In this document: positions 4,221 to 46,386 of the stretch, one piece after another
Layout of the letters: each line of letters opens with the position of its first letter
How positions within the stretch are numbered: position 1 is the first letter of the stretch
Notes under the pieces: model-generated
Told to the model about the DNA's origin: nothing
Database searches by the model: none
The model's input: only the letters and a program-made list of their open reading frames with translations
Source of the DNA: an uncultured Desulfobacteraceae bacterium
Lineage (GTDB): Bacteria; Desulfobacterota; Desulfobacteria; Desulfobacterales; UBA5852
DNA: 64,000 nucleotides
NCBI GenBank assembly: GCA_913060875.1
Contig: CAJXSL010000019.1
Coordinates: 1-64,000 of the forward strand
Direction: 5' to 3'
Program-made: the position numbers and the translations under genes

Positions 4221-4751
4221 ATGCGATTTGAGGATCTTGAAGTATGGAAGCGTGTAGCTCGACTGAGCGCTGACATCTATCGCCACTTGAAGGACCTGAA
4301 AGATTTCGGGTTCAAAGATCAAATAACACGATCCGGATTATCGGTACCAAGCAACATCGCGGAAGGGTTTGAAAGGCTATCTGAGAAAGAGGGTATTGCT
4401 TTCCTATCTTATGCTAAAGGTTCTGCCGGCGAACTTCGATGCCAGATCTATACTGGAATGGACATTGGATATATTCCCAAAAATATCGGAAGTTCGTGGA
4501 TCAAAAGGACCATCGAACTTTCCGCCATGATCGGCAGGTTGATCAAAACAAAAAACAGTACGTGGCGAACCGCCTCAAAATCGGTAACTGTCAGATCAAG
4601 TCTGAATTACTACAGATTAGGAAACGCAAAATGCTGCAAATATCTTTCCTTTCCCCCCTCGTTCTTCGTTCCTTACACCTCGCATCTTGAGCCTTTAACC
4701 TTCAAACTTTATCCTGGTATTTCTTATGTGCGGCATCGCCGGTATCATTGA
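4221..4751 (+). CDS. Four-helix-bundle protein (S23/IVS-encoded family)
   Basis: Residues 1 to about 110 match the four-helix-bundle family first seen in 23S rRNA intervening sequences: FEDLEVWKRVARLSADIY, then ITRSGLSVPSNIAEGFER, then FLSYAKGSAGELRCQI and MDIGYI. These proteins are usually about 115-125 residues. Here the frame runs on to 176 residues and overlaps the asparagine synthase start by 26 bases. The last 50 or so residues look like translated repeat sequence, so the original stop has probably been lost. Inverted purine-rich repeats flank the gene, suggesting it arrived as a small mobile unit. Function unknown; the related Avd proteins of diversity-generating retroelements bind nucleic acid, but no retroelement is visible here. 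Confidence 0.65.
   Translation: MRFEDLEVWKRVARLSADIYRHLKDLKDFGFKDQITRSGLSVPSNIAEGFERLSEKEGIAFLSYAKGSAGELRCQIYTGMDIGYIPKNIGSSWIKRTIELSAMIGRLIKTKNSTWRTASKSVTVRSSLNYYRLGNAKCCKYLSFPPSFFVPYTSHLEPLTFKLYPGISYVRHRRYH
4652..4705. repeat. Right flank of the four-helix-bundle gene
   Basis: The C/T-rich words cctcgttcttcgttcc and cacctcgcatcttgagcc are the inverted counterpart of the G/A-rich words at 4110-4205. They lie inside the extended reading frame of the four-helix-bundle protein. Confidence 0.35.
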
Positions 4752-16695: not shown

Positions 16696-16957
16696 CTAAC
16701 CCGAACATTTCATGAAATTTTGTCTACACAATAAATTTTATGCAAATCTTCAAGGGTATAAACGCTATTCGGGATATGATTTTCAGGTGACACGTTGTAC
16801 CCTTCACCGATCTCCAGAATCATAGAAAAAGTTTCACCCTGCGGGCACGCTCGAGATGCCCATTGGCCGCGTTATCAGGGGCTTGCGGTACAGGCGTACA
16901 GCGGCGCCCCTGATGCCTTATCAATGAACATCTCGAACGCGTGAAATATCCGGGATA
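16696..16957 (+). mobile_element. MITE-like 262-bp element, copy 1
   Basis: Non-coding element bounded by CTAACCCGAACATTTCATG on the left and GTGAAATATCCGGGATA on the right, imperfect terminal inverted repeats. Inside, CGAGATGCCCATTGG pairs with CCAATGAACATCTCG, and ATCAGGGGC with GCCCCTGAT. Copies 2 and 3 lie at 23612-23875 and 45953-46215 in the same orientation. No transposase is encoded, so movement would need one in trans. Confidence 0.7.
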
Positions 16958-17579: not shown

Positions 17580-17642
17580 TTAGCCCGAATATTTGCATAA
17601 AATTTATTGTGTGGAAAAAATTTCATGAAATATCCGGGTTAG
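17580..17642 (-). mobile_element. 62-bp deletion derivative of the MITE-like element
   Basis: Read on the minus strand it begins CTAACCCGGATATTTCATG, continues through about 45 bases of the left end of the 262-bp element, and ends ATATTCGGGCTAA. Both terminal repeats are kept and the interior is lost. It sits just after the Fn3 stop codon; the equivalent place behind the pseudogene lacks it, so it inserted after the duplication or was lost there. Confidence 0.65.
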
Positions 17643-22289: not shown

Positions 22290-22800
22290 CCAATAAGTAG
22301 CCACTGATTTTCACAGATGGTCACGGATATAACAACAGGAGGCCAACATATCAATCCGTGGTTTTCCAGGGCAAGGAGGGATTTTACCATGAAGAGAAAA
22401 AAGAGCGTCAAGCTGAAAGGGAAAAACCGAAACAAGTTTCACCACGAAGCACACGAAGGGCCACGAAGGTAAAAAAGCGTCAAGCCGAAAGGGATAGCCA
22501 CAGTACTCATAGTTGCTGGTTTTCCCTACAGCCTGATCCGTGGTTATCCGTGTTCATCTGTGTCCAAATAATTTTTACCATGAAGTTCATGAAGGACATG
22601 AAGGGGTAGAAGGGGTAATGAAAGCGCCAAGCTCAAAGCGTCAAGCTGAAATGTTAAACCCACAACCAAAAAGATTATACATCGGTTTTGCAGTTCCTTT
22701 CAGCTTTCAGCTTGACGCTTCTCCCACAATCTGTGTGTATCTGTGTTCATCCGTGGCTAAAAACAGCTGTTCATCACGAAGGATGACAGCAAACAAAGGC
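22290..22800. repeat. Composite intergenic repeat array between rmlB and the toxin gene
   Basis: About 500 bases of modules A-B-C-D with no gene. The 22440-22550 part is nearly identical to 25621-25733, and the 22620-22740 part is nearly identical to 37267-37387. A and B modules are followed by their mirror images (ctttcagcttgacgcttc), giving large potential hairpins. Confidence 0.65.
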
Positions 22801-22807
22801 ATCGGGC

Positions 22808-23134
22808 TCAGGCCTGCAATAGCCTTCGTTGCAGCAATGTTTGCATATCGCGGCGACCATCGGCGATCACCATTACGTATACATTTTCGTCCACGATCCT
22901 ATAAATGATGCGGTAAGGTTTGAAGAAAATCTCACGGTACTCGCGAAGCACAATGGCCAAGAGTTCCTTGGGGTAGGCTCCTCGTTCCGGGTTTTCAGAA
23001 AGGCTGGAAAAAGCCTTCTCGATTTGATCGAGGACATAATCGGCTTTGCCCGGCACGTCGTGCCATTCGATGTAATCATACAAATCTTCCAGGTCGCGCG
23101 CGGCATCTTTGGTCAGGAACACTTGGGAAGACAT
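22808..23134 (-). CDS. ParE/RelE-family toxin
   Basis: A 108-residue protein with the ParE/RelE fold pattern: an N-terminal helix pair (AARDLEDLYDYIEWHDVPGKADYVLDQI) and the strand region PERGAYPKELLAI...REIFFKPYRIIYRIV, with an RRD motif near the C-terminus. Such toxins inhibit gyrase (ParE) or cut ribosome-bound mRNA (RelE); the C-terminal pattern is closer to ParE. The Phd-like antitoxin gene lies upstream on the same strand but is separated by 145 bases of degenerate repeat element instead of the usual overlap. No good Shine-Dalgarno precedes the ATG, so toxin translation may be weak. Confidence 0.75.
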   Translation of the reverse strand: MSSQVFLTKDAARDLEDLYDYIEWHDVPGKADYVLDQIEKAFSSLSENPERGAYPKELLAIVLREYREIFFKPYRIIYRIVDENVYVMVIADGRRDMQTLLQRRLLQA

Positions 23135-23554: not shown

Positions 23555-23611
23555 ATCTATCCTCCGAATATAGACCAAATTTAGTCCTCATACAGGTCGA
23601 TTGTCAATCTG

Positions 23612-23875
23612 TTTAACCCGAACCTTTCATGAAATTTTTTCTAAGCAATAAATTTTATGCAAGTTTTCAGGGGTATCAAAGCTATTCGGGGTATGATTTT
23701 CGGGTGACAATTTGTGCCCCTGGCCGATTTCCAAAATTATCGAAAAAATTTCACCCTGCGGGCGCGCCCGAGATGCCCATTGGCGGCGTTATCAGACACT
23801 TGCGGTCCAGGCGTACAGCGGCGTCCCTGATGCCTTGCCAATGAACATCTCGAACGCGTGAAATATCCGGGTTAA
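23612..23875 (+). mobile_element. MITE-like 262-bp element, copy 2
   Basis: Left end TTAACCCGAACCTTTCATG (23612-23630) and right end CGTGAAATATCCGGGTTAA (23857-23875) are 19-base imperfect inverted repeats. The internal outer stem CGAGATGCCCATTGG/CCAATGAACATCTCG is kept; the inner ATCAG stem is partly mismatched. No coding capacity. Confidence 0.75.
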
Positions 23876-27429: not shown

Positions 27430-27520
27430 AAGAGCGAGTTTACCATAAAGAGCATGAAGGACATGAAAAGAAAACCTTAATTCAAAAGATTTCTACCACG
27501 AAGGACACGAAGAGCATGAA
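27430..27520. repeat. A modules on the 3' side of the GxxExxY gene
   Basis: taccataaagagcatgaagg and ctaccacgaaggacacgaag, forward A modules. Inverted A' copies lie beyond the other end of the gene at 27928-27950 and 28038-28062, so the gene is bracketed. Confidence 0.6.
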
Positions 27521-27534
27521 GAAAACAAAAAAGG

Positions 27535-27969
27535 TTATATTACAAAACGCTTCAATCCACTTTTCAGCCTGACAGCGTTGAAATTGATCAAGAAACCCTC
27601 TTTCACGTTTAACAGTTTCATGTAGGTCAACAGCTGTGCTTCATGGATCGGCAATAATTTTTCGACACTTTTGAGTTCCAGGACGATGGTATCTTCAACA
27701 AGAAAGTCCAATCGATAGCCGCAATCCAATTCAATTCCCTTGTAAACGACAGGCAACGGGTGCTCAGGTTTATATGAAATCTTTTGAACATCGAACTCGT
27801 GAGCCAAACAGCGCTGATACGTCGATTCCAAAAGGCCAGGGCCGAGAACACTGTGGACCTCCATAGCGCAACCTATCACTCGATAGGACAATTCACTGAA
27901 TTTTATAGCCTTTCTATGCAAAACTTTCGTATCCTTAGTGCTTTTCGTAGTGAAAGATCTATTCGCCAC
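27535..27969 (-). CDS. GxxExxY family protein (PD-(D/E)XK nuclease-like)
   Basis: A 144-residue protein with the family motif GLLESTY at 45-51. The nuclease-like pattern is Asp88 (RLDFLV), then ten residues to Glu98-Leu-Lys100 (LELKSVEKL), followed by HEAQLLTYMKLL and a GFLINF ending. The family is assigned to the PD-(D/E)XK superfamily (PDDEXK_3); its target is unknown. The first 17 residues (FTTKSTKDTK) are the translation of an A-type repeat, so part of the repeat has become coding or the true start is later. A and D modules bracket the gene in inverted orientation, like the second family member at 41662. Confidence 0.8.
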   Translation of the reverse strand: MANRSFTTKSTKDTKVLHRKAIKFSELSYRVIGCAMEVHSVLGPGLLESTYQRCLAHEFDVQKISYKPEHPLPVVYKGIELDCGYRLDFLVEDTIVLELKSVEKLLPIHEAQLLTYMKLLNVKEGFLINFNAVRLKSGLKRFVI

Positions 27970-28065
27970 AGATTCTCACAGATGATCACCGATCAATAAA
28001 ATCAATTTGATATTATAAGCTTTTTGGGTTTTTCTTCTTCGTGTCCTTCGTGCTCTTCGTGGTAA
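27925..28065. repeat. A' and D' modules on the 5' side of the GxxExxY gene
   Basis: Inverted A' words (gtatccttagtgcttttcgt, cttcgtgtccttcgtgctct), a D-type word (cacagattctcacagatgat) and the core-like AATCAATTTGAT at about 28000-28011. The first A' lies inside the reading frame start. Confidence 0.6.
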
Positions 28066-31166: not shown

Positions 31167-31194
31167 ATTTCAATCAAGGTTCCGCTGATGGGCC

Positions 31195-31350
31195 CAAAAG
31201 GGTAAGTCAAAACCAATTCACCATGAAGGACATGAAGATCCTGAAGAAGACCAGACAGGACACGGATCAACACAGATTCCCACAGATCAAAACATTGATA
31301 TTATTCAGGAAAAACATTATATAGGTTGCTCTGTGTCCTATTAATGTTTC
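31195..31350. repeat. A, D and D' modules upstream of etfB
   Basis: accatgaaggacatgaagat (A), ggacacggatcaacacagat (D) and, 60 bases later, an inverted D' word (ctgtgtcctattaatg). Rest of the gap is AT-rich. Confidence 0.5.
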
Positions 31351-31414
31351 ACGTCGTATTCGTCTTTTATCCATGTTTTGTAAAATGTACCCGTACCGGT
31401 GTCAACCAAAATAG

Positions 31415-31440
31415 AACGAACGTTCGTTTTTTTATTGACA
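31415..31440 (+). promoter_or_regulatory. Perfect 14-bp palindrome next to a TTGACA -35 box
   Basis: AACGAACGTTCGTT (31415-31428) is a perfect palindrome of the kind bound by TetR-family repressors of acyl-CoA genes. TTGACA at 31435-31440 lies 6 bases downstream; the -10 is poor (CATATC at 31458). The TetR encoded at 37426 is the obvious candidate binder. Confidence 0.5.
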
Positions 31441-31554
31441 CCCAACACGTCATCTGCCATATCGCAATCTGTGACTCAATGACAAGAGGACCATGCAGCG
31501 CATGAACCGCGTTCAACACTTCCGATTATACATGATCAACCGACCTGATTTCCG

Positions 31555-32265
31555 ATGAGCAACCTTATTATCGTCCGACATGGCCAGGCATCTTTCGGTG
31601 AGGAAAACTATGATCAACTCTCACCCGTTGGGTACCGCCAGGCACAAGTCGTGGCCAACCATTTGCAGGATACTGGTGCAGGCTTCGATGCCGTCTACAC
31701 CGGGCAACTCACACGGCAGCGGCAAACCTTTCAGACCATGGCAACCGTTTTCGCCGAAAACGGCCGTCCCCTTCCCGAATCGTCAACCCTGCCGGATCTC
31801 GACGAATATGATTCTACGGGCGTCTGGGCGTATTACTACCCTGTCATGGTCAGGGAAGATCCCCACCTCAAGCTGGATGAAACCCGTCTCGCGGAAGACC
31901 CGAAAGCCTTCCAAACGGTGTTTTCCCGTGTTGTCCAGCGCTGGATGAATGAAACCCAGGACCGGCCGGGGCTGGAATCATGGCCCAATTTTCGCGCGCG
32001 AATTGGCCGTGGCTTAAATACAATCATGCAGCAGGTAGGCTCCGGCAAGAACGTCATGGTCTTCTCATCGGCCGGGCCCATTGCCGTAGCCGTCCAGCTG
32101 GCCACCCAAATGCCCGACGACCAGTGCATCGGGATTTCCTGGCAGGTGCTGAACGCCTCCATGACACGCTTTCGCTTCAACGCCGAGAAGATGACGCTGA
32201 CGGGATTCAACGACGTGGCCGCTTTGGAGCGCCAGGGGGATCCCGGGCTTTTGACGTATCGCTGA
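31555..32265 (+). CDS. Histidine-phosphatase-fold protein with altered active site
   Basis: A 236-residue member of the phosphoglycerate mutase/histidine phosphatase superfamily. The phospho-acceptor motif RHG is at residues 8-10 (IIVRHGQASF). The second catalytic His, normally in a VSHGG-type strand, is replaced: the strand reads VMVFSSAGPIAVAV. The enzyme may therefore have unusual chemistry or a binding role. This variant commonly accompanies APH-type kinases and acyl-CoA dehydrogenases, as here. By inference it could act on phosphorylated acyl-CoA intermediates. No strong Shine-Dalgarno is present. Confidence 0.75.
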   Translation: MSNLIIVRHGQASFGEENYDQLSPVGYRQAQVVANHLQDTGAGFDAVYTGQLTRQRQTFQTMATVFAENGRPLPESSTLPDLDEYDSTGVWAYYYPVMVREDPHLKLDETRLAEDPKAFQTVFSRVVQRWMNETQDRPGLESWPNFRARIGRGLNTIMQQVGSGKNVMVFSSAGPIAVAVQLATQMPDDQCIGISWQVLNASMTRFRFNAEKMTLTGFNDVAALERQGDPGLLTYR

Positions 32266-32268
32266 AAA

Positions 32269-32500
32269 TGGGACACAGATTAACACGGATGGACACGGAT
32301 AAAAGCACATAAAAGATCAAAACCCTATAAGCTGGTCACCATGAAGAACATGAAGGACATGAAGAAATTTTAGGGACACTGATAAACACTGATTCTCACA
32401 GATTTTAAACTTCATGACCTTCATGTTCTTCATGGTAAAATCTCATTTTTTTTAAATTTCTCAATCCGTGTTTATCTGTGTTCATCAGTGTCCCCACAAT
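32269..32500. repeat. Mirrored D-A-D-A'-D' intergenic element
   Basis: gggacacagattaacacgg (D), accatgaagaacatgaagg (A), ggacactgataaacactg (D), cttcatgttcttcatggta (A') and ccgtgtttatctgtgttc / catcagtgtcccc (D'). The outermost words are reverse complements, so the whole 230 bases can fold on itself. Confidence 0.65.
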
Positions 32501-32529
32501 ATCATTGACCCACTCTATAGGAGCATAAA

Positions 32530-33720
32530 TTGGATTTCACCGTATCGAAAAAGATGCAAACCGTCGTCGGCATGATCGACGAATTTGTGGACAAGGAACT
32601 CATCCCCCTGGAGCCTGTTTTTCTGCGGGGTGATATGGATGTGCTGGAGAAGGAAATCAAGGACCGGCAGCGGCTGGTCAAACAGATGGAGCTCTGGGCG
32701 CCGAACCATCCGGTTGAATACGGCGGCATGGGCCTCGATTTGATGGAGCATGCCCTGGTGTCCGAAGCCCTGGGCCGCACCCCGCTGGGCCACTATACCT
32801 TCGGCTGCCAGGCCCCGGACGCCGGCAACGCCGAAATCCTGCACCTTCACGGCACACCGGAACAGAAAGAGCGCTATTTAAAACCGCTGATTCAGGGAGA
32901 CATCCGGTCCTGCTTCTCCATGACCGAGGTGGAGCTGCCCGGTTCCAATCCCCTCATGATGGATACCACCGCCGTGAAGGACGGGGACGACTATGTGATC
33001 AACGGCCAGAAATGGTACACCACCTCGTCGGACGGGGCCGAATTTGCCATCGTCATGGCCGTGACCAATCCGGAAGCCCCACCCTATCTTCAGGCCAGCA
33101 TGATCATCGTGCCCACTGACACGCCCGGGTTCAACCAGGTCCGCTGCATCCCGGTCATGGGGGAATCCGGAACCGGCTACTTCAGCCACGGCGAGATCCT
33201 CTACCAGTCCTGCCGGGTCCCCCAAAGCAATCTCCTGGGGCCCGAAGGGCACGGTTTCGTCATTGCCCAGGAGCGGCTGGGGCCAGGCCGCATTCACCAC
33301 TGCATGCGCTGGATCGGCATCTGCAACCGGGCCCTGGATCTCATGTGCCAGCGGGCGGCCACCCGGCCGATCGCCCCCGGACGAACCCTCGGGACCAAAC
33401 AGATCATCCAGGCCTGGATTGCCGAAAGTGCCGCCGAAATCCAGGCGGCCCGGCTTTCGGTTCTGCATGCTGCCTGGAAAATGGAGGTGGAAAGCCACAA
33501 GGCGGCCCGCCGGGAGATTTCCCTCATCAAATTCCTGACGGCCAACGCCATGATGAACGTCATCGACCGGGCTCTCCAGGTGCATGGGGGGCTGGGCATG
33601 ACCGACGATACCATCCTGGCCTTTCTCTACCGTCATGAGCGGGCCGCCCGAATTTACGACGGCGCCGACGAAGTGCACAAAATCTCGGCTGCCAAGCAAA
33701 TTTTGAAGGACTATGCGTAA
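32530..33720 (+). CDS. Acyl-CoA dehydrogenase, ACAD10/ACAD11-like
   Basis: A 396-residue flavin acyl-CoA dehydrogenase. FSMTEVELPGSNP (about 129-141) and KWYTTSSDGAEF form the flavin/substrate core, with QVHGGLGMTDD near 350. At the catalytic position the sequence reads RIYDGADEVHK, with Asp377 where ordinary family members have Glu (IYEGT). That DG-DEVH pattern is characteristic of ACAD10/ACAD11-type enzymes, which act on 4-phosphoacyl-CoA. The start is TTG at 32530, supported by AGGAG six bases upstream; no ATG fits. With the APH-type kinase at 38130 it may form the two-step 4-hydroxyacyl-CoA route. Confidence 0.85.
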   Translation: MDFTVSKKMQTVVGMIDEFVDKELIPLEPVFLRGDMDVLEKEIKDRQRLVKQMELWAPNHPVEYGGMGLDLMEHALVSEALGRTPLGHYTFGCQAPDAGNAEILHLHGTPEQKERYLKPLIQGDIRSCFSMTEVELPGSNPLMMDTTAVKDGDDYVINGQKWYTTSSDGAEFAIVMAVTNPEAPPYLQASMIIVPTDTPGFNQVRCIPVMGESGTGYFSHGEILYQSCRVPQSNLLGPEGHGFVIAQERLGPGRIHHCMRWIGICNRALDLMCQRAATRPIAPGRTLGTKQIIQAWIAESAAEIQAARLSVLHAAWKMEVESHKAARREISLIKFLTANAMMNVIDRALQVHGGLGMTDDTILAFLYRHERAARIYDGADEVHKISAAKQILKDYA

Positions 33721-33739
33721 AACGAAAGCCATAAGCAGC

Positions 33740-33905
33740 CACTGATTGACACGGACAGACACAGATAGAACAAAATAAAGTTTACTATGAAGAACATGAA
33801 GGGCTTGAAGGAAATCAATGGGACACAGATGAACACGGATAAACACTGATAAATCAAAACCAAGAATTCACCACGAAGGACACGAAGAGCAAGAAGAGCA
33901 AGAAG
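33740..33905. repeat. D-A-D-A intergenic modules
   Basis: cactgattgacacggacag (D), actatgaagaacatgaaggg (A), gggacacagatgaacacgg (D) and accacgaaggacacgaagag (A), all forward. No mirrored half here. Confidence 0.6.
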
Positions 33906-33949
33906 AAAAGATCCGTATTTTTGTTTGTAACACAGAAAATTTTTCGCCC

Positions 33950-34140
33950 TGCACCTAAAAATGTAAATTTGAACAGACCAGAATTTTGGAACTTCAAACG
34001 CGTAATGTGGCTGTTAGCAGGCAGTAGGTTTTGGTTCCGGGCAAGGCCGCAGCCCATTGGACACCGCAGGCGTAGCAGCGCTACGTCGAGGACGTACGAT
34101 GGGCGAGAACGCCGCCCGGGGGCAAAAGATGCTGCCTGGT
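33950..34140 (-). repeat. Dispersed intergenic hairpin element (copy 2)
   Basis: On the minus strand: GGCGTTCTCGCCCATCGTAC, then GTCCTCGACGTAGCGCTGCT and GCCTTGCCCGGAACC. It parallels the element at 2425-2640, with the stem GTAGC/GCTAC replacing ATACTTGAGTAT. No gene. It directly precedes the start region of the next dehydrogenase gene. Confidence 0.4.
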
Positions 34141-34172
34141 AGCAGTCACCCAAAACAGGGGAACTAAAAAAA

Positions 34173-35987
34173 ATGGCCCAACAAATTGCCGACCGCCGCG
34201 ACATTGACTTTGTTTTGCATGAAATGCTCCAGATCGAGAGGCTGACCGAAGCGGAAATGTTCAGCGAGTTCAACCGCAAAACCTTTGATCTCATTCTCAA
34301 CGAAGCCCGGCGCTTTGCCATCAAGGAGATGCTGCCCACCTACGAGGAAGGGGACCGGGTGGGCGTCCGCTACGAGGGCAACGGTACGGTCAAGGTGCCG
34401 GAGAGCTTTCACCGGGTACACGAACTCTATCTGGAAAGCGAATGGACCGCCCCGGCCATGAATCCCGAATACGGCGGCCAGGGCCTCCCCCACTCCCTGA
34501 CCGTAGCGGTGGACGAATACCTCATGGGCGCCAACTGGGCCATCAGCGCCTATGGCTCCATGGGAGCCGGCACCGGCTACATGATCGAAAACTACGGTAC
34601 GGGCGACCAGAAAAAAACCTACCTGAAAAAGCTCTATACCGGGGAATGGGGCGGCACCATGCTGCTCACCGAATCCGACGCCGGCTCCGACGTGGGCAAC
34701 CTGTCCACCAGCGCGGTGCGCAACCCCGACGGCACCTATTCCCTCACCGGCAACAAGATTTTCATCACCAATGGCGAGCATGACCTGGTGGACAACATCA
34801 TCCACCCGGTGCTGGCCCGCATCGAGGGGGATCCGGCCGGCACCAAGGGGATTTCCATCTTCATCGTGCCGAAATACTTCGTCAATCCCGACGGCAGCCT
34901 CGGGGATCGCAACGACATCGTCTGCACCGGTGTGGAAGAAAAACACGGCATCCATGCCAGTGCCACCTGCAGCATGGCCCTGGGCACCAAGGGCCAATGC
35001 ATCGGCTACCTGCTGGGGGAAGAACGGCAGGGCATGAAAATCATGTTCCAGATGATGAACGGCGCCCGTCTGGGCACCGGGATGCAGGCCCTGGCCCATG
35101 CTTCCACGTCCTACCTGCACGCCCTGGACTACGCCCGCAAACGCATCCAGGGCCGCGACCTGGAGGATTTCCAGAATCGCGATGCCCAACCCGTGGCCAT
35201 TATCCGGCACCCGGATATCCGCCGCAATCTTTTGTGGATGAAAGCCCACGTCGAAGGCCTGCGGGCCCTGATCTACTACTGCTGGAACCTTACGGATCGG
35301 GCCAAAATCGCCGCATCGGAAGAAGAGCAGACCCAGTTGATGGCTCTGGTGGACCTCATCACACCGATCATCAAAGGCTACGGCAGCGAACGCGGCTACG
35401 ACGTTTGCGTCCAGGCGATTCAGGTTTTCGGCGGTGCCGGCTACACACGGGACTACCCGGTGGAGGCCATTGCCCGGGACTGCAAGATCACCAGCATTTT
35501 CGAGGGCTGCACCGGCATCCAGGCGCTGGATTTATTGGGCCGCAAGCTGGGCATGAACAAAGGGGCCCTCTATATGGATTTTCTCGGAAAAATGAAAGAA
35601 GCGGCCGCCGCCGGCAAAACGGTACCGGCAACGGCCGACATGGCCGAACGCTTCGATGGGGTCGTGGACCGCCTGGGCCAGATCGCGCTGGGTCTTGGGC
35701 AGGCCGCCATGTCGCCCAAGTTCAAGGCCGCGTTTTCCCATTCCGTGCCCTTTCTGGAGGCCATGGGAGACGTCACGATGGCCTGGATGCTGCTGTGGCG
35801 GGCCACCGTGGCGGCGGAAAAGCTGGAAAACGCCAAGAAAAAAGACCAGCTTTTCTATCAGGGCCAGATCCAGACGGCGGAATTTTTCATTCGCACCGTC
35901 CTGCCGGTCGCACTTGGCAAAATGAACGCGATCGAAGATTGCTGCGATGCCGCGGTAGAGATTCAGGATGCCGCCTTCGGCGGCTGA
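34173..35987 (+). CDS. Acyl-CoA dehydrogenase with C-terminal extension (AcdA/DmdC-like)
   Basis: A 604-residue acyl-CoA dehydrogenase of the long subfamily. TMLLTESDAGSDVGNLSTSA (about 165-184) and NKIFITNGEHD are the core motifs; QVFGGAGYTRDYPVE and the catalytic Glu in SIFEGCTGIQALDLLGRKL are intact. The extra 130-residue C-terminal domain, rich in helices (KMKEAAAAGKTVPATADMAE), is typical of this group, which includes DmdC and FadE5-like enzymes. It oxidises an acyl-CoA to enoyl-CoA, with electrons going to ETF. Strongly GC-rich in third codon positions, like its neighbours. Confidence 0.9.
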   Translation: MAQQIADRRDIDFVLHEMLQIERLTEAEMFSEFNRKTFDLILNEARRFAIKEMLPTYEEGDRVGVRYEGNGTVKVPESFHRVHELYLESEWTAPAMNPEYGGQGLPHSLTVAVDEYLMGANWAISAYGSMGAGTGYMIENYGTGDQKKTYLKKLYTGEWGGTMLLTESDAGSDVGNLSTSAVRNPDGTYSLTGNKIFITNGEHDLVDNIIHPVLARIEGDPAGTKGISIFIVPKYFVNPDGSLGDRNDIVCTGVEEKHGIHASATCSMALGTKGQCIGYLLGEERQGMKIMFQMMNGARLGTGMQALAHASTSYLHALDYARKRIQGRDLEDFQNRDAQPVAIIRHPDIRRNLLWMKAHVEGLRALIYYCWNLTDRAKIAASEEEQTQLMALVDLITPIIKGYGSERGYDVCVQAIQVFGGAGYTRDYPVEAIARDCKITSIFEGCTGIQALDLLGRKLGMNKGALYMDFLGKMKEAAAAGKTVPATADMAERFDGVVDRLGQIALGLGQAAMSPKFKAAFSHSVPFLEAMGDVTMAWMLLWRATVAAEKLENAKKKDQLFYQGQIQTAEFFIRTVLPVALGKMNAIEDCCDAAVEIQDAAFGG

Positions 35988-36024
35988 TTTTTCACCCTGC
36001 AGTGCATGCAGAAAACCATAATAG

Positions 36025-36298
36025 GACACTGATTACGAAGATAAACACGGATTAAAAAACACAAACCATATTTCACCATGAAGATCATGAAGGGTTTGAA
36101 GAGTAAAACCATATCCCCAAATACCTTCTCGAATTATACGGTGATTGGGCCTGCAAGGTGCGCTTTTTTTCGGGATTTTCGCTTTAATCAATTTGTCACC
36201 GACAAATTGATTTCTTCATGATCTTCATGCCCTTCATGGTAAACGGTGTTGGTTTTTCAGTATCTGTGTCCATCCGTGTTCATCAGTGTCCCATAAAT
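36025..36298. repeat. Complete mirrored D-A-core-A'-D' element
   Basis: aggacactgattacgaagat (D), accatgaagatcatgaaggg (A), the core AATCAATTTGTC-acc-GACAAATTGATT (36186-36212, perfect 12-base arms), cttcatgatcttcatgccct (A') and ctgtgtccatccgtgttcat plus cagtgtccc (D'). This is the best-preserved symmetric unit. Confidence 0.75.
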
Positions 36299-36311
36299 AA
36301 GGAGTAATACC

Positions 36312-37181
36312 ATGACCATCGACGACATCAAAAAAATCTGCGTGGTAGGCGCCGGCAACATGGGGCACCAGATTGCCCTGCTGTGTGCCCTGAACGGTTT
36401 CGAAACGGCCTGCACCGACATCGACAAAAAAACCCTCGACAAGGCGATTGCCTTTGCCGATCAATACCTCCCCGGCCGGGTGGCCAAGGGCAAACTGACC
36501 GAACAGGAAGCCCAGGATGCCCGCAACCGGCTCTCCTTCAAATCGCAACTGGCCGAAGCCGCTAAAGACGCGGATTACGTGATCGAAGCCGTGGTGGAAG
36601 TGCTGGCCATCAAGCGACAGATCTATGCCGATCTCGACAAACTGACGCCAGCGCATGCCATCCTGGCCACGAACAGCTCCGCCATTGTCAGTTCCAAGAT
36701 TGCGGATGCCACCAACCGTCCCGACAAGGTCGTCAACCTGCACTTTTTCAACCCCGCCCTGGTCATGAAGCTGGTGGAAGTGGTCCAGGGCCCGCATGTG
36801 TCCGGGGAGACGGCGGATCTTTCCATGCAACTGTGCGACAAACTCGGCAAAGTGCCCGTGCGCCTGAATAAGGAAGTCGAAGGTTTTTTGCTGAACCGCA
36901 TCTTCTTTGCCATTTTCAAGGAAGCCGAATGGCTGCTGGAGATGGGTGTCGCCTCGGTGGAAGACATCGACAAGGCCTGTGTTTTTGGCGCCGGCCACCC
37001 CATGGGCCCTTTCCGCCTGATGGACCTCACCGGCATCGATCTGGCCTACACCATGGGCATGGAAGCCTTCAAGCGTTCCGGCGACCGCCAGGATCTGCCG
37101 TCGCCCAGTATTGTCGAACATTTTGTGAAGGGGGAATACGGCCAGAAAACCGGGCGGGGGTGGTACGACTACGGGAAATAA
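36312..37181 (+). CDS. 3-hydroxyacyl-CoA dehydrogenase
   Basis: A 289-residue single-function NAD-dependent dehydrogenase (Hbd/PaaH type). The Rossmann loop GAGNMG is at 13-18, ATNSSA and HFFNPALVMKLVEVV contain the catalytic His region, and the C-terminal domain has NRIFFAIFKEAEWLLEMGVAS and GHPMGPFRLMDLTGID. It oxidises 3-hydroxyacyl-CoA to 3-ketoacyl-CoA. AAGGAG precedes the ATG. In the proposed route it would act after the dehydrogenases. No thiolase gene is found in the window. Confidence 0.92.
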   Translation: MTIDDIKKICVVGAGNMGHQIALLCALNGFETACTDIDKKTLDKAIAFADQYLPGRVAKGKLTEQEAQDARNRLSFKSQLAEAAKDADYVIEAVVEVLAIKRQIYADLDKLTPAHAILATNSSAIVSSKIADATNRPDKVVNLHFFNPALVMKLVEVVQGPHVSGETADLSMQLCDKLGKVPVRLNKEVEGFLLNRIFFAIFKEAEWLLEMGVASVEDIDKACVFGAGHPMGPFRLMDLTGIDLAYTMGMEAFKRSGDRQDLPSPSIVEHFVKGEYGQKTGRGWYDYGK

Positions 37182-37186
37182 AAATT

Positions 37187-37412
37187 TGGGACACGGATGA
37201 ACACGGATAAACACTGATAGAAAGTCAAAATCAATAGAATACCATGAAGATCATGAAGGACTTGAAGGGGAATAAGGGCCAAGCTCAAAGCGTCAAGCTG
37301 AAAGGTTAAACCCACAACCAAAAAGATTATACATCGGTTTTGCCGTTCCTTTCAGCTTTCAGCTTGACGCTTCTCCCACAATCTGTGCGCATCTGTGTCC
37401 TATTTACCACCA
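37187..37412. repeat. Mirrored D-A-B-B'-D' element
   Basis: gggacacggatgaacacgg (D), accatgaagatcatgaagg (A), gccaagctcaaagcgtcaag (B), an interior shared with 22653-22715, ctttcagctttcagcttgac (B') and gcgcatctgtgtcctattta (D'). About 120 bases are nearly identical to 22620-22740. Confidence 0.7.
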
Positions 37413-37425
37413 TTTAAGGACTTAA

Positions 37426-38133
37426 ATGAATTACCAGCAATTCCAAAAATCCATCAACGTCTCCAAAGAGCAGCTCTATCGCGAGATCTACCTGGCCAAC
37501 CGGGATCAGATTCAGGTCAAAAAGGAAGAAACGGTTATCCGCAACCTTGCCCGCATCTTCGATGCCGCCCTCAAAATCAGCAATGAAAAAGGCTTTCAGG
37601 CCATGAGCATGCGGGATTTCAGCAAGGAAACCGCCCTTAGCATGGGGGCCCTCTACTCCTACTTTGCCAGCAAGGACGAATTGCTGGACATGATCCTGCG
37701 TCAGGGCCGCCAGTTGGTCGTGCGGATCCTCAATGCGCATATTCAACCCATCAGCGATCCGGTCACCAAACTCGAGGCCGCTATCCGCATCCATATTTAC
37801 CTGAGCGAGGCGCTGCAACCCTGGTTCTATTTTTCCTTCATGGAAGTAAAAAATATGAGTCCCGCCGAGAAGGAAAATACGGTTGCCGGCGAACTCTATA
37901 CCGATCAAATCTTTGCGGATATTCTCAGCGAAGGACAGGCCGCCGGTCATTTTGCAGCCCGCGACCCCCAGCAAAGCGCCAGCGGCATCAAAGCGCTTTT
38001 ACAGGACTGGTATGTCAAGCGCTGGAAGCACGCGCGCCGGCAAACCGATGTGGATGACTATGCCGATTTCATTGTCGATTTCGTCATGGCCTATCACCTC
38101 GTCGCCAACGGCAAGAAAGGACAACGGCCATGA
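37426..38133 (+). CDS. TetR-family transcriptional regulator
   Basis: A 235-residue regulator. The helix-turn-helix is at about 42-88 (RIFDAALKISNEKGFQAMSMRDFSKETALSMGALYSYFASKDELLD), then an all-helical ligand domain. Members of this group sense acyl-CoAs or xenobiotics and repress nearby genes. Its stop codon overlaps the kinase start by four bases (ATGA), so it is co-translated with the APH-type kinase. The palindrome at 31415-31428 is a candidate operator; no second copy was spotted close to its own promoter. Confidence 0.85.
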   Translation: MNYQQFQKSINVSKEQLYREIYLANRDQIQVKKEETVIRNLARIFDAALKISNEKGFQAMSMRDFSKETALSMGALYSYFASKDELLDMILRQGRQLVVRILNAHIQPISDPVTKLEAAIRIHIYLSEALQPWFYFSFMEVKNMSPAEKENTVAGELYTDQIFADILSEGQAAGHFAARDPQQSASGIKALLQDWYVKRWKHARRQTDVDDYADFIVDFVMAYHLVANGKKGQRP

Positions 38134-39197
38134 CCCTGTCGGATCAATCCCGGCCGATTCGGCCGGACGAAGGTCTCAACGAAGCGGCCCTGGAGGCCTT
38201 TCTCAGGGACAGCCTGCCGGGTCTCAAAGGGCCCATGACGGTCCGGCAGTTCCCCAGCGGATTTTCCAATCTCACCTATCACCTGCGAATCGGGAAGCGT
38301 GAATTTGTCCTGCGCCGACCGCCCTTCGGCACCAAAGCCAAAAGCGCCCATGACATGAAGCGCGAATTCAGCATCCTCAAGGCGCTGAAACCCCATTATC
38401 CCTACTGCCCTGAAGCGCTTGTCTATACCGAAGACAATGCCATCCTGGGGTGCCCTTTCTACATAATGGAGCGCCTGCAAGGCATCATCCTGCGTAAAAA
38501 TCTTCCGGAAGGCCTCTCTTTTTCCGCTGGGGATATGCATCAACTGTGTGAAACCCTGCTGGACGTCCTCGTGGAACTCCACCAGGTGGACTATCGCCAA
38601 GCCGGTTTCGACCGCATCGGCCACCCCGAAGGATACGTCCGCCGCCAGGTCGAAGGCTGGACCGGCCGTTACCGCAAGGCCCGCACGGACGACGCCCCTG
38701 ATTTCGAAGCCGTCATGACCTGGCTGGCGGATCAAATGCCGCCGGATACGACCTCCCCGGCAATTATTCATAACGACTATCGGTTCGACAACGTGGTGCT
38801 GGAGGAAACCCGGCCCCGCAACATCATCGGCGTTCTCGATTGGGAAATGGCGACCGTGGGCGACCCCCTGATGGATCTCGGCAACACCCTGGCCTATTGG
38901 GTCCAGGCCGACGACAGCGAGGAACTCCAGGCCATGCGACTCATGCCCACCCACCTGGAAGGGGCCCTGACCCGGCGCGAACTGGTGGACCGCTATGCGG
39001 AGAAGACCGGCCGCGCGGTGGATGATTTTGCCTTCTACAGCGCCTTCGGCCTGTTTCGGCTGGCCGTCATCGCCCAGCAGATCTACTACCGCTACTACCA
39101 TGGCCAAACCAAAGACGAACGTTTCAAGATGCTCATCTTCGGCGTGCACATCCTGGAAAAGACCGCCAAGCGCGTCATGAACGAAGGATTTTTCTAA
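38130..39197 (+). CDS. APH-type phosphotransferase (ACAD10/11 kinase or LvaA-like)
   Basis: A 355-residue kinase-fold protein. FPSGFSNLTYHL (41-52) is the nucleotide loop, VLRRPPFGTKAKSAHDMKREF carries the Lys and Glu region, HNDYRFDN (214-221) is the catalytic loop with Asp216, and DWEMATVGDP (from 237) binds metal. All key residues are present. This family is fused to the dehydrogenase in mammalian ACAD10/ACAD11 and corresponds to LvaA of bacterial levulinate catabolism, where the 4-hydroxyl of an acyl-CoA is phosphorylated. Here kinase and dehydrogenase are separate genes. It overlaps the tetR gene and is not an antibiotic resistance gene by context. Confidence 0.85.
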   Translation: MTLSDQSRPIRPDEGLNEAALEAFLRDSLPGLKGPMTVRQFPSGFSNLTYHLRIGKREFVLRRPPFGTKAKSAHDMKREFSILKALKPHYPYCPEALVYTEDNAILGCPFYIMERLQGIILRKNLPEGLSFSAGDMHQLCETLLDVLVELHQVDYRQAGFDRIGHPEGYVRRQVEGWTGRYRKARTDDAPDFEAVMTWLADQMPPDTTSPAIIHNDYRFDNVVLEETRPRNIIGVLDWEMATVGDPLMDLGNTLAYWVQADDSEELQAMRLMPTHLEGALTRRELVDRYAEKTGRAVDDFAFYSAFGLFRLAVIAQQIYYRYYHGQTKDERFKMLIFGVHILEKTAKRVMNEGFF

Positions 39198-39202
39198 AAC
39201 GA

Positions 39203-39425
39203 CTATGGGACACTGATCAACACTGATAACACAGATAAAGTCTAAAACATCCTAAGGTTGTAAAAACACATTTTAACATCAATAGCATGAAAGTCCTGAA
39301 CCCAATAGCTTTATAGACAGTTGGTTACGATGGTGATGCCACCAGGAAGATAACAAGAGATTGGAAGTAAACTAAAAACCTTCTTTAAAATCTGTGTAAA
39401 TCTGCGTTCATCTGTGTCCTTATCA
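39203..39425. repeat. Degraded D...D' element
   Basis: tgggacactgatcaacactg (D) at the left, ctgcgttcatctgtgtcctt (D') at the right, and an interior with little module sequence left (an A-like tagcatgaaagtcctgaac word). Confidence 0.5.
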
Positions 39426-39450
39426 ATTCTAACCTACCAAAGGACAGCCA

Positions 39451-41595
39451 ATGCCTGACAATCCGCTCGAGACCATCATGGCGCCGCGCTCCATCGCCGT
39501 TGCCGGCGCCAGCAACAACCCCACCAAAATGGGGACCATCCAGTACCTGAACCTTCTGCACAGCGGCTTTCCCGGGCCGGTCTACCCCCTGCATCCCAAA
39601 GAAAAAGAGGTTTTCGGCGCCAAGGCGTATGCCCGCATCGAAGATCTGCCGGAGGTGCCGGACCTGGCCATGCTGGTGGTGCCCGGACGGGTGGTGCCGG
39701 ATATGATCGAGCGGTTTGGCGCTCTCGGAACCCGCCATGCCGTCATCATCACCGCAGGCTTCAAGGAAACCGGTCCGGAGGGCCTGGACCGCGAAAAGGA
39801 ATTGAACCAGGCCGCCCGCGCTCACGGCCTGCGGTTTTTGGGCCCCAACTGCATGGGGCTGGTCAACACCCACCTGCCTCTCAACGTGACCGCCGCCCCC
39901 CTGGTGTCGCCCCCCGGAAACCTTGGTCTGATATCCCAGAGCGGGACCTATATCACCCAGACCCTGAAATATCTCCACGAGAAGGGCGTGCGTCTCAGCA
40001 AGGCGGCCAGCGTGGGCAACGAAGCCAGCATCGACCTGGTAGACGTACTCGAATACCTGGGCGAAGACCCGCAGACCCGGGCCATCGGCATGTATATCGA
40101 GTGCATTCGACGCCCGGACCGCTTTCTGGATGCGGCCCGGCGCATTGCCCCGCACAAGCCCATCATTGCGCAATACGTGGGGGGCACAGCATCCGGAGCC
40201 CGCTCAGGGTCCAGTCATACCGGTGCCCTGGCCGGACCGGACGACATCTACGACGGCCTTTTCCGACAGGCGGGCATCCTCCGGGCCAACAGCATCGAAG
40301 ACGTTTACCGCGTCGGGCAAGCGCTCTCCACCCAGCCGCTGCCCCGGGGCAAACGAGTTGCCATCCTGACCAACTCCGGCGGACCCGGAACCGCCATGGC
40401 CGATACCCTGGACCGCCTGGGCATGGAAATGCCGGCCTTCAGCCCATCCCTGCAGTCAAAACTCGGGGCCCTCCTGCCGGGACATGCCAGCGCCGCCAAT
40501 CCGGTGGACCTGACCTTCCATGTGGACATGACCCTGATGGTCCAAACCCTGCCGGAAACCATCCTCGCATCCGACGAAGTGGATGCCCTTCTGATTCATG
40601 GCATCATGGACACCGGGTGGGCCGATCTGGCCTATCCGGTATTCAAGGATATCTTCAATATGAGCCAGGAAGAATTCCGGAAGGGCATGCAAGCCAATGT
40701 CGAAAACCTCATTAAAATGCCGTCGCGGTGCAACAAACCGGTAATCGTCTCCTCTTTTTTTGGACGCAATGACCACGCCGCCCGCAGTTTGCAGGATGGC
40801 GGCATTCCGGTTTTCGACAGCCCGGAGAAGGCCGCGGCCGCCATGGCCGCTCTCAACGCCTATCGGGAAATCCAGGCCCGGCCGAAAGATGTCGCCCCTG
40901 CCGGCAACCCATCCTCATCTAAGGCCCGGCCGATATGGGAAAAAGCCGCTGACAGGGGATGGGACGAATTCCGTGCCAAAGAAATGCTGCGGGCTTATAA
41001 GATCCCAACCTGCCGGGAAATTTTGGCGAAATCGAAAGCCGACGCCATCGACGCAGCCAAGGCCATCGGGTACCCCGTGGCGGTCAAAGGCTGCCACACG
41101 AGCCTTGCCCACAAGACGGAACTAGGGGTCGTCCATCTCGACCTGGTGTCCGCCGACGGCGTCGCCGCAGCCTGCGCCGCCATTCGGGACAAATCGCCGG
41201 ATGCGGATTTCCTGGTGTGTGAAATGGTGTCCGGCCACCGGGAGTTCATCGCGGGCGTTCACCGTCATCCCGGATTCCCCCCCTGTGTCCTCTTCGGCCT
41301 GGGGGGCGTCTTGACCGAAGCGCTTGAAGAGACCGCCATCCGCCTGGCGCCCTTGCGCCGCTCGGAAGCGCTGGAACAGATTGCCGCCATCCGTGCCCAG
41401 CCGCTCCTCGATGCGTATCGGGGTTGGCCGGCTGTCGACCGGGAGGCCCTGGCCGACATCCTGGTCCGGATCGGTCTGCTGGCCCTAGATTTTCCACAGA
41501 TCGAGGCCATCGATCTCAACCCCATCCTCATCCGGGATGGCCAGCCGGTGGTGGTGGATGCCTTGTTTGAACAAGAAAAATCAATAGGACACTGA
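39451..41595 (+). CDS. ADP-forming acyl-CoA ligase (fused alpha-beta)
   Basis: A 714-residue NDP-forming acyl-CoA synthetase. The N-terminal CoA-binding domain has IAVAGASNNPTKMG, the ligase domains have GLISQSGTY and the phosphohistidine His256 in GSSHTGALAG, and the C-terminal ATP-grasp part has FRAKEMLRAYKIPTC, PVAVKGCHTSLAHKTELGVV. It interconverts acyl-CoA plus ADP and phosphate with free acid, CoA and ATP, so it can save energy from acyl-CoA. The last residues (IGH) and the TGA stop are encoded by a D-type repeat, showing that the repeat has reached the end of the gene. Confidence 0.88.
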   Translation: MPDNPLETIMAPRSIAVAGASNNPTKMGTIQYLNLLHSGFPGPVYPLHPKEKEVFGAKAYARIEDLPEVPDLAMLVVPGRVVPDMIERFGALGTRHAVIITAGFKETGPEGLDREKELNQAARAHGLRFLGPNCMGLVNTHLPLNVTAAPLVSPPGNLGLISQSGTYITQTLKYLHEKGVRLSKAASVGNEASIDLVDVLEYLGEDPQTRAIGMYIECIRRPDRFLDAARRIAPHKPIIAQYVGGTASGARSGSSHTGALAGPDDIYDGLFRQAGILRANSIEDVYRVGQALSTQPLPRGKRVAILTNSGGPGTAMADTLDRLGMEMPAFSPSLQSKLGALLPGHASAANPVDLTFHVDMTLMVQTLPETILASDEVDALLIHGIMDTGWADLAYPVFKDIFNMSQEEFRKGMQANVENLIKMPSRCNKPVIVSSFFGRNDHAARSLQDGGIPVFDSPEKAAAAMAALNAYREIQARPKDVAPAGNPSSSKARPIWEKAADRGWDEFRAKEMLRAYKIPTCREILAKSKADAIDAAKAIGYPVAVKGCHTSLAHKTELGVVHLDLVSADGVAAACAAIRDKSPDADFLVCEMVSGHREFIAGVHRHPGFPPCVLFGLGGVLTEALEETAIRLAPLRRSEALEQIAAIRAQPLLDAYRGWPAVDREALADILVRIGLLALDFPQIEAIDLNPILIRDGQPVVVDALFEQEKSIGH

Positions 41596-41616
41596 TTAAC
41601 ACAGATAACACAGGTT
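41586..41616. repeat. D module at the end of the CoA ligase gene
   Basis: ataggacactgattaacaca; it provides the ligase stop codon and forms the left half of a D...D' pair around the GxxExxY gene. Confidence 0.6.
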
Positions 41617-41661
41617 TTTTTTAAAAAGTCAGAAAACAAGCGATGAGAAGGAGAGCCGCTC

Positions 41662-42042
41662 TTGGCTTATAAGTACGAGGATCTTACCCGCCGCATTATT
41701 GAAATCTTCTACAACGTATACAACACGTTAGGGTATGGTTTCCTTGAAAAGGTTTACGAAAATGCGCTGGTGATTGAATTCAACAAATCTGGTGTAGATG
41801 CCAGGCCGCAAGCCCCTATAAAGGTGGTTTACGACCGGCAAATTGTAGGGGAATACTTCATCGATCTTCTGGTTGAAAATTGCGTCATCGTCGAAATCAA
41901 AGCCGTTAAAGCACTTTTGAAGGAACACGAAGCACAGTTGCTGAACTATTTGAAGGCCTCAGAGATGGAAGTGGGGCTTCTGCTTAATTTTGGCCCGAAG
42001 CCTGAAATCAGGCGCAAAATTTTCGATAACGATAAAAAATAA
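41662..42042 (+). CDS. GxxExxY family protein (PD-(D/E)XK nuclease-like)
   Basis: A 126-residue protein with GFLEKVY (26-32), the family motif, and Asp68 (EYFIDLLV) ten residues before Glu78-Ile-Lys80 (VIVEIKAVKAL), the PD-(D/E)XK-like active-site pattern. EHEAQLLNYLKASEMEVGLLLNFG follows, as in the copy at 27535. Function unknown; nucleic-acid cleavage is predicted only from fold. The start is TTG at 41662 after AAGGAG. The gene sits exactly between a D module and its inverted D' copy, in the place where other units have A-core-A'. Confidence 0.85.
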   Translation: MAYKYEDLTRRIIEIFYNVYNTLGYGFLEKVYENALVIEFNKSGVDARPQAPIKVVYDRQIVGEYFIDLLVENCVIVEIKAVKALLKEHEAQLLNYLKASEMEVGLLLNFGPKPEIRRKIFDNDKK

Positions 42043-42054
42043 CGCGTGGGTGAA

Positions 42055-42096
42055 GTTTAATATCTGTGTTTATCTGTGTCCATCAGTGTCCCATTT
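42055..42096. repeat. D' module closing the GxxExxY unit
   Basis: aatatctgtgtttatctgtg and catcagtgtcccat, the reverse complement of the D word at 41586-41616. Together they look like terminal inverted repeats of a 510-base unit. Confidence 0.6.
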
Positions 42097-42097
42097 T

Positions 42098-45952: not shown

Positions 45953-46215
45953 TTAGCCCGGATATTTCATGAAATAATTCTGCGAAATATATTTTTTACA
46001 TAAAAAATCAGTTATATAAACATTTATCAAGGCGCGATTTCCCGGTGACAGTTTGTTACCTGCACCGATTTCTAAAGAGACAGAAGACTTTCACCCTACG
46101 GGCGCGCCCGAGATGTCCCTTGGCTGCGTTATCAGGGGCTTGCGGTAGCGGAAGTACAGCCGCGCCCCTGATGCCTTACCAATGAACATCTCGAACACGT
46201 GAAATATCCGGGTCA
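45953..46215 (+). mobile_element. MITE-like 262-bp element, copy 3
   Basis: Left end TTAGCCCGGATATTTCATG and right end CGTGAAATATCCGGGTCA. The inner stem ATCAGGGGC/GCCCCTGAT is perfect and the outer stem CGAGATG/CATCTCG is kept although the sequence between differs from copies 1 and 2. Its right end contains the stop codon of the Feo Cys-rich gene. Confidence 0.75.
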
Positions 46216-46386
46216 GGGCCGCGGCAAGATGGTCTTGTAGTCCGATTGACAGGCCGAGGCCTGGCTACATCCAGAGCACCCGCAATCGCAGTTATTCCCA
46301 GGCGGTGACCGCAAAAGCTGCCAAAGCTGCCTCATCGTATACAAAACCGCCAGTCCCACAATCACGGCAATAATAAAGATATCCAT
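46213..46386 (-). CDS. FeoB-associated Cys-rich membrane protein
   Basis: A 57-residue protein. One transmembrane helix (IFIIAVIVGLAVLYTM) is followed by a Cys-rich tail (NCDCGCSGCSQASACQ). Such proteins accompany FeoB in anaerobes and probably help deliver or bind ferrous iron. I start at ATG 46386, which has GGGAGGTGAT at ideal spacing; a TTG 18 bases upstream is less likely. It follows feoB on the same strand. The TGA stop is inside the right terminal repeat of MITE copy 3. Confidence 0.8.
   Translation of the reverse strand: MDIFIIAVIVGLAVLYTMRQLWQLLRSPPGNNCDCGCSGCSQASACQSDYKTILPRP

Follow-up and report, generated by a model that had tools for sequence, protein, structure and literature searches.

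Mirrored word arms around GxxExxY nuclease-like genes point to overlooked gene-and-repeat elements in many phyla

Why does a small gene of the GxxExxY family lie exactly between a repeated intergenic word and the mirror image of that word? The question is raised by the genome of an uncultured Desulfobacteraceae bacterium (5.88 Mb, 30 contigs), in which the first 64 kb of contig C19 (89 kb) are here called the window. Exactly two GxxExxY genes were found in this genome, both within the window, and no function or genomic setting of the family is described in the literature searched. The initial annotation had placed the gene at 41662-42042 (site 1) between a D word and its reverse complement D', an enclosure that our analysis confirms, and the same mirrored setting is found around GxxExxY genes of many phyla. 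The unit at site 1 is composed of the following features.

41583..41614, forward strand: 5' arm D (GGACACTGATTAACACAGATAACACAG), a 12-nt-period word overlapping the stop codon of the upstream acyl-CoA synthetase gene.
41662..42042, forward strand: GxxExxY / PDDEXK_3 gene with a TTG start, 126 amino acids, predicted RecB/Cas4-like PD-(D/E)XK nuclease (TIGR04256, E 2.3e-41; PF13366, E 3.6e-42; AlphaFold2 pLDDT 95).
42061..42095, reverse strand: 3' arm D' (reverse complement of GGGACACTGATGGACACAGATAAACACAG), ending ~5 nt short of the stop codon of the convergent EamA gene.

Positions 41583-41608 (aataGGACACTGATTAACACAGATAA) and 42070-42095 are near-exact reverse complements, 461 nt apart with an inverted-repeat score of 18.5, and RNA folding of 41583-42097 predicts that the two arms pair. 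The unit occupies the whole stop-to-stop gap between the ADP-forming acyl-CoA synthetase (open reading frame end 41595), whose stop codon is covered by the D word, and the EamA gene.

The mirrored-repeat setting of GxxExxY genes is general. Each gene was scored by the best local alignment of its 350-nt upstream flank with the reverse complement of its 350-nt downstream flank, and a score of at least 14 was taken as a mirrored flank. The sample of 113 GxxExxY genes covers Desulfobacterota and about 15 further phyla. It includes 29 additional loci found by searching 198 genomes of the window's phylum and 80 GTDB loci (Bacteroidota, Pseudomonadota, Chloroflexota, Planctomycetota, Acidobacteriota, Verrucomicrobiota, Omnitrophota, Cyanobacteriota, archaea, and others); these 80 were the top matches to an alignment headed by one window protein, and many come from metagenome bins. 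In this sample 71% of the genes had mirrored flanks, versus 2.4% of 613 control genes from the same contigs, 0-1.4% of controls matched for size and spacing on the contigs of the GTDB set, and none of 28 ParE toxin genes. The enrichment of mirrored words that had been anticipated for Desulfobacterota is therefore strongly positive and extends well beyond that phylum, and we are highly confident of the anatomy of the unit, a gene between mirrored arms of words. The window is rich in repeats, and intergenic repeats might by chance flank two of its genes; however, the above contrasts, seen in many phyla, rule out such a coincidence, to which we assign almost no probability. Among the few high-scoring controls are three genes for S23 (PF05635), the protein of ribosomal RNA (rRNA) intervening sequences, related to Avd of diversity-generating retroelements (PMC10053308), and one REP-associated transposase-like gene. 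Mirrored flanks are expected for S23 and REP-associated genes, so that such high scores are unsurprising.

The second GxxExxY gene of the window (site 2) has arms of another type.

27440..27529, forward strand: two A-type arrays (ACCATAAAGAGCATGAAGGACATGAAAAG; ACCACGAAGGACACGAAGAGCATGAAG) of 9-nt-period words, at 27440-27469 and 27494-27529.
27535..27969, reverse strand: second GxxExxY gene, GTG start as listed, 144 amino acids (TIGR04256, E 1e-43), with A-type word sequence in its N-terminal codons.
28029..28064, reverse strand: A' arm (reverse complement of TTTACCACGAAGAGCACGAAGGACACGAAGAAG), the mirror of A.

The A array at 27494-27529 and the A' arm are 499 nt apart and reach an inverted-repeat score of 18.5. 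Bracketing by A and A'/D' words had been proposed for this gene; its A/A' part stands, but the word at ~27962 has the D orientation, so that the mirror around the gene is A/A' only. The proposal that the first codons are themselves repeat was borne out by translation, FTTKSTKDTK being read out of A-type words. The ATG-type A' arm at the orthologous place in the congener G200 could be the source of the gene's start codon. Both arms at site 2 differ in concert, ACG-to-ATG, between the window and G200; this amounts to one event, and, private covariation of the D arms in this genus being unsupported, we do not claim compensatory evolution.

The arms consist of degenerate tandem words with an 8-12-nt period (ACCACGAAGGACACGAAGG, ACCACAGAGACACAGAG, ACCGCAGAGGCGCAGAGG, GGACACTGATTAACACAGAT, and similar), and one word grammar, CRCNRAK, is common to arms across phyla. 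The best period was 8-12 nt in 72 of 80 armed loci. Inward word pairs occur at 58% of GxxExxY loci versus 0.8% of controls, and outward pairs at 16% versus 1%. In multi-copy genomes an arm matches its own partner (mean 15.7) better than the arms of other GxxExxY genes (mean 9.7, p = 8e-14), which indicates that most units have a private word flavor. Moreover, the words track the gene: the strict word pattern averages 12.6 occurrences per genome in the 70 genomes with GxxExxY and 1.9 in the 128 without it (about 7-fold, p = 6e-9, kinship ignored), and at least four words are present in 32/70 gene-positive versus 6/128 gene-negative genomes (p = 6e-12). The reversed word pattern is nearly absent from the surveyed genomes. 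Four genomes (G022, G134, G145, and G185) have 26-53 A-type words and no GxxExxY gene that we could find; relics, assembly gaps, or another enzyme are candidate explanations for such word-rich genomes. Neither the arm words nor their link to the gene was found in the open literature, which leaves out most subscription journals, and no account of the 7-, 9-, and 12-nt-period intergenic repeats of environmental genomes was found in the literature searched.

The same words also form frames that enclose no gene. D and A words occupy most intergenic regions from 17 to 54 kb of the window, and four of the gene-less arrangements, none of them with an assigned strand, are as follows.

32269..32500: nested mirrored unit D>A>(D)<A'<D', with a predicted RNA fold at z = -11.8 and an orthologous unit in the congener G200.
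36020..36298: nested unit D>A>core hairpin<A'<D', with the core AATCAATTTGTCACCGACAAATTGATT.
37187..37412: frame D>A ... D', enclosing an inverted pair of 7-nt-type words (AAGCTCAAAGCGTCAAGCTGAAAGG) of the class found around S23 genes.
39207..39420: frame D ... D'.

The three frames previously reported (32269-32500, 36025-36298, and 37187-37412) exist as described, and the same intergenic regions are occupied in G200. The D/A frame around the inverted S23-type pair at 37187-37412 means that two word classes nest within each other. The A words of this genome pair into 21 doublets facing inward and none facing outward, mostly with a spacing of 25-43 nt, which is a REPIN-like arrangement. Nearly all intergenic regions of the window from 31170 to 39430 and of G200:C35 from 16.4 to 26.5 kb (L200, L201) contain nested D>A>core<A'<D' structures, with orthologous positions kept. 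A core hairpin CAATTTGTC..GACAAATTG recurs there, and a paired change GAATTTGTC..GACAAATTC was seen once, in G200 near 22765. No known structured RNA was detected by Rfam in the window.

The encoded protein is predicted to be a RecB/Cas4-like PD-(D/E)XK nuclease. Both window proteins match TIGR04256 (140.8 and 148.4 bits, cut-off 35) and PF13366 PDDEXK_3 (143.8 and 144.9 bits, cut-off 22) over the full length; PF13366 is the sole match of the first, the second has in addition a sub-threshold Cas4 match, and neither matches the HUH/Y1 transposase family PF01797. The pattern D-x9-E-x-K, noticed earlier in both proteins, was verified and is near-invariant in 89 relatives (D68 in 89/89, E78 in 88/89, K80 in 88/89), as are Q92 (88/89) and Y96 (87/89); QxxxY is the RecB/Cas4 motif. 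An AlphaFold2 model built from 89 sequences (pLDDT 95) is nearest to Cas4 SSO0001, the best Foldseek hit (E 6e-5), and to lambda exonuclease and Hjc resolvase; in VIA-align many PD-(D/E)XK enzymes scored Z 6-9, none of them standing out as the nearest relative, and a sequence search of solved structures found no relative at E <= 1. Searches with defense models returned only weak Cas4-fold matches (best E 7e-5), and we rejected membership of a known anti-phage defense system.

We therefore propose, at what we judge to be even chances and with mobility included, that GxxExxY genes may be the gene-bearing members of widespread mirrored-repeat elements, organized like REPIN/RAYT with an unrelated enzyme. 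The unit consists of an arm of two to four degenerate tandem words (8-12-nt period, CRCNRAK), a nuclease gene of ~125 amino acids, and an arm of the same type in reverse. The arms can fold it into a long stem with the gene as the loop, in single-stranded DNA, a cruciform, or RNA, and the gene-less inward doublets and nested frames would be non-autonomous relatives. We infer that the Cas4/RecB-like nuclease may recognize the periodic words of the folded stem, bind them, and cut or trim the stem, and that hairpin units would thereby be excised or copied into new intergenic places, the enzyme acting in cis on its own unit and in trans on the gene-less doublets.

A parallel design, which the initial annotation did not include, was found for S23 genes outside rRNA: they have the same layout of a gene in mirrored arms. 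In 1.24 Mb of this genome scanned for mirrored pairs ~440-560 nt apart around one small gene, the only cases were the two GxxExxY genes and three S23 genes in contig C21; the genome has eight S23 copies, five of them in C21. Mirrored arms flank 60% of 43 S23 genes in a first set, mostly from the window's phylum, and 18/33 in other phyla. Their words mostly have a 7-nt period (TAGTGAATAGTGACTAG, TCGTAAATCGTAAATCG, AAAGCTCAAAGCTGAAAGG), and a 7- or 14-nt period was found in 41/48 cases for S23 versus 2/74 for GxxExxY (p = 1e-22); a strict rule of 7 nt for S23 is broken by one S23 unit with 9-nt AACNGYTTN arms. S23 is present in 47/54 GxxExxY genomes versus 40/94 others (p = 5e-8, kinship ignored). 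The region 1-60 kb of G000:C21 (L249-L251) holds five S23/IVP genes in 41 kb, two of them with in-frame stops, amid (AAAGCTC)n-type words and gene-less inverted pairs, and looks like an array of S23 units. The S23/IVP gene within the window (4221-4751, a 176-amino-acid frame) has no mirrored arms.

Since S23 genes are a hallmark of rRNA intervening sequences and share this design, the main rival explanation is that a GxxExxY unit acts as RNA, in the manner of such sequences: a stem-loop within a host transcript, with arms cut by RNase III and the protein a passenger or helper, the arms sparing the neighboring genes rather than serving transposition. The predicted RNA folds of units are indeed strong (z -3.4 and -11.8), and GxxExxY genes are commoner in co-directional gene runs than other genes (59/93 versus 209/506). 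However, none of the GxxExxY genes at 20 scanned loci lies within an rRNA gene, and the unit at site 1 stands stop-to-stop between convergent genes, not inside a transcript. Processing by RNase III needs no nuclease with a conserved active site and DNA-nuclease relatives, and an RNA role alone leaves the gene-less doublets unexplained. We regard this explanation as unlikely.

The proposal of mobile gene-bearing elements was further considered in the light of related genomes. Orthologous sites differ in whether a whole unit is present, decayed, or missing. At site 1, the gene with mirrored D-type arms stands beside the same EamA gene in three genomes of the same genus (G200, G201, and G199), the copy in G200 being frameshifted, and in the sister genus (G202) the same two neighbors are separated by about 109 nt that contain no GxxExxY gene and no word. 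In a different genus, G055 has the unit, G017 lacks it, and G148 retains its 5' arm and about 44 codons before it is cut short. The locus L368 (G055:C2 211500-216000) has a 1.8-kb insert that is missing from the congener G120 (G120:C19, L366) and comprises a WYL-like regulator and a GxxExxY unit, next to an S23 unit; the insert, and thus more than the unit, is bounded by a 13-nt direct repeat (AGGAAGGC[C/T]TTGC). Among 50,697 phage records no relative was found, and of 72,556 plasmids only 8 hold one, so GxxExxY genes are not ordinary phage or plasmid cargo.

Another possibility is that the hairpins are REP-type repeats of the host, spread by a RAYT or an insertion sequence, in whose loops GxxExxY and S23 genes land or survive, and that the nuclease does not act on the words. 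Words do persist in some gene-negative genomes, the D words of the window's genus are one shared family, and the window has many gene-less frames per gene. However, site 1 of the sister genus has neither gene nor word, so that nothing at this empty site suggests a hairpin that was there before. Two gene families with different word periods in the same genomes are not predicted by a neutral landing site, and no RAYT-like gene was found with one query in the 1.24 Mb scanned, most of the genome not having been searched for RAYT. We consider this explanation quite improbable.

Several observations weigh against autonomous mobile elements and their non-autonomous derivatives. No movement was observed, and a genome has few copies (2 here). 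Inheritance at site 1 is vertical in four congeners, the gene there is under purifying selection (nonsynonymous divergence dN 0.14, synonymous divergence dS 1.5, dN/dS about 0.09 for G201-G199), and no duplication bounds a unit alone at the three sites compared. About 29% of GxxExxY genes have no mirrored arms at a score of at least 14, the correlation between words and gene lacks correction for phylogeny, and the six gene-negative genomes mentioned above keep their words. In addition, private matching of D arms is unsupported in the window's genus, where identities to the own partner (21.5 and 23.7) are below those to others (22.9 and 24.8); a D arm is no closer to its own partner than to other D' arms, so the pairing is not privately maintained there, and private covariation of these arms finds no support. 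Thus, of the earlier suggestion that the empty units are non-autonomous relatives of the gene-bearing ones, the kinship is favored by the excess of inward doublets, the word-gene correlation, and the absence or truncation of units as wholes, but strong mobility is disfavored by the vertical inheritance at site 1, the lack of a clean unit-bounding target-site duplication, and the word-rich gene-negative genomes.

Some further repeat-rich regions deserve mention. Another inverted intergenic family (CCCGAACATTTCATGAAAT / GTGAAATATCCGGG) is dispersed in the genome, in the window at 16696-16751, 17587-17642, 23611-23874, and 46154-46220 and elsewhere at L244, L247, and L260, and a ParE-type toxin gene lies at 22844-23122 within a repeat-rich stretch. 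Three GxxExxY genes in a row lie within about 3 kb at L212 (G153:C3 169.5-172.3 kb) and likewise at L211 (G072:C32), where an S23 gene follows.

Overall, these data point to two overlooked kinds of self-contained gene-and-repeat elements. Tentatively, and with somewhat less than even confidence, we suggest that GxxExxY and S23/IVP (an Avd-like four-helix bundle) may be the enzymes of two unrecognized cross-phylum classes, each with its own word code (8-12 nt versus 7 nt), that the rRNA intervening sequence would be a special case, and that the short-period repeats of many environmental genomes would be non-autonomous populations. A named but unexplained protein family thereby gains a setting that can be tested at the bench, a nuclease with a defined hairpin substrate adjacent to it. 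The S23/IVP link is a way into a decades-old question, the role of the rRNA intervening-sequence protein and the spread of such sequences, and the link between GxxExxY and S23 suggests a source of the intergenic repeats with 7-, 9-, and 12-nt periods in environmental genomes. Should the enzymes indeed act on their arms, such gene-repeat systems would do without HUH and DDE transposases.

Among known systems, Cas4/RecB nucleases resemble the GxxExxY protein in D...ExK plus QxxxY, in the best Foldseek hit, and in weak Cas4 profile matches; however, the GxxExxY protein is far smaller, about 125 amino acids, and no cas genes were recognized among the neighbors scanned with Pfam. Classical insertion sequences and miniature inverted-repeat transposable elements would have terminal inverted repeats, a target-site duplication, and near-identical copies elsewhere in the genome; GxxExxY units have inverted arms, no duplication bounding the unit was seen at the three sites compared, and a 13-nt direct repeat bounds the larger insert described above. 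The rRNA intervening sequence has a 28-bp terminal stem and is excised by RNase III (PMC4990558), and rRNA insertions are sporadic, some without an open reading frame (PMC4990558, PMC11270868). A small gene as the loop of a terminal inverted repeat is common to both, but the protein families are unrelated (PF13366 versus PF05635), S23 arms mostly have a 7-nt period, and GxxExxY units are intergenic and outside rRNA, with no Rfam match in the window and no rRNA beside 20 other GxxExxY genes. The closest parallel in organization is REPIN/RAYT (TnpA-REP), where a small nuclease-type gene lies between inverted repeats, the repeats are dispersed as intergenic hairpin doublets, and gene presence tracks the repeats (PMC2817692, PMC3116915). 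GxxExxY genes share all three features: the gene between inverted repeats (71% of 113 versus 2.4% of controls), the dispersed inverted doublets (21 inward, 0 outward in this genome), and the correlation of gene and repeats. In contrast to the HUH/Y1 transposase of RAYT (PF01797), the GxxExxY enzyme is of the PD-(D/E)XK type (PF13366), its words, degenerate and tandemly repeated with a period of 8-12 nt, lack the GT(A/G)G head and the internal palindrome of REP, and their grammar is common to many phyla.

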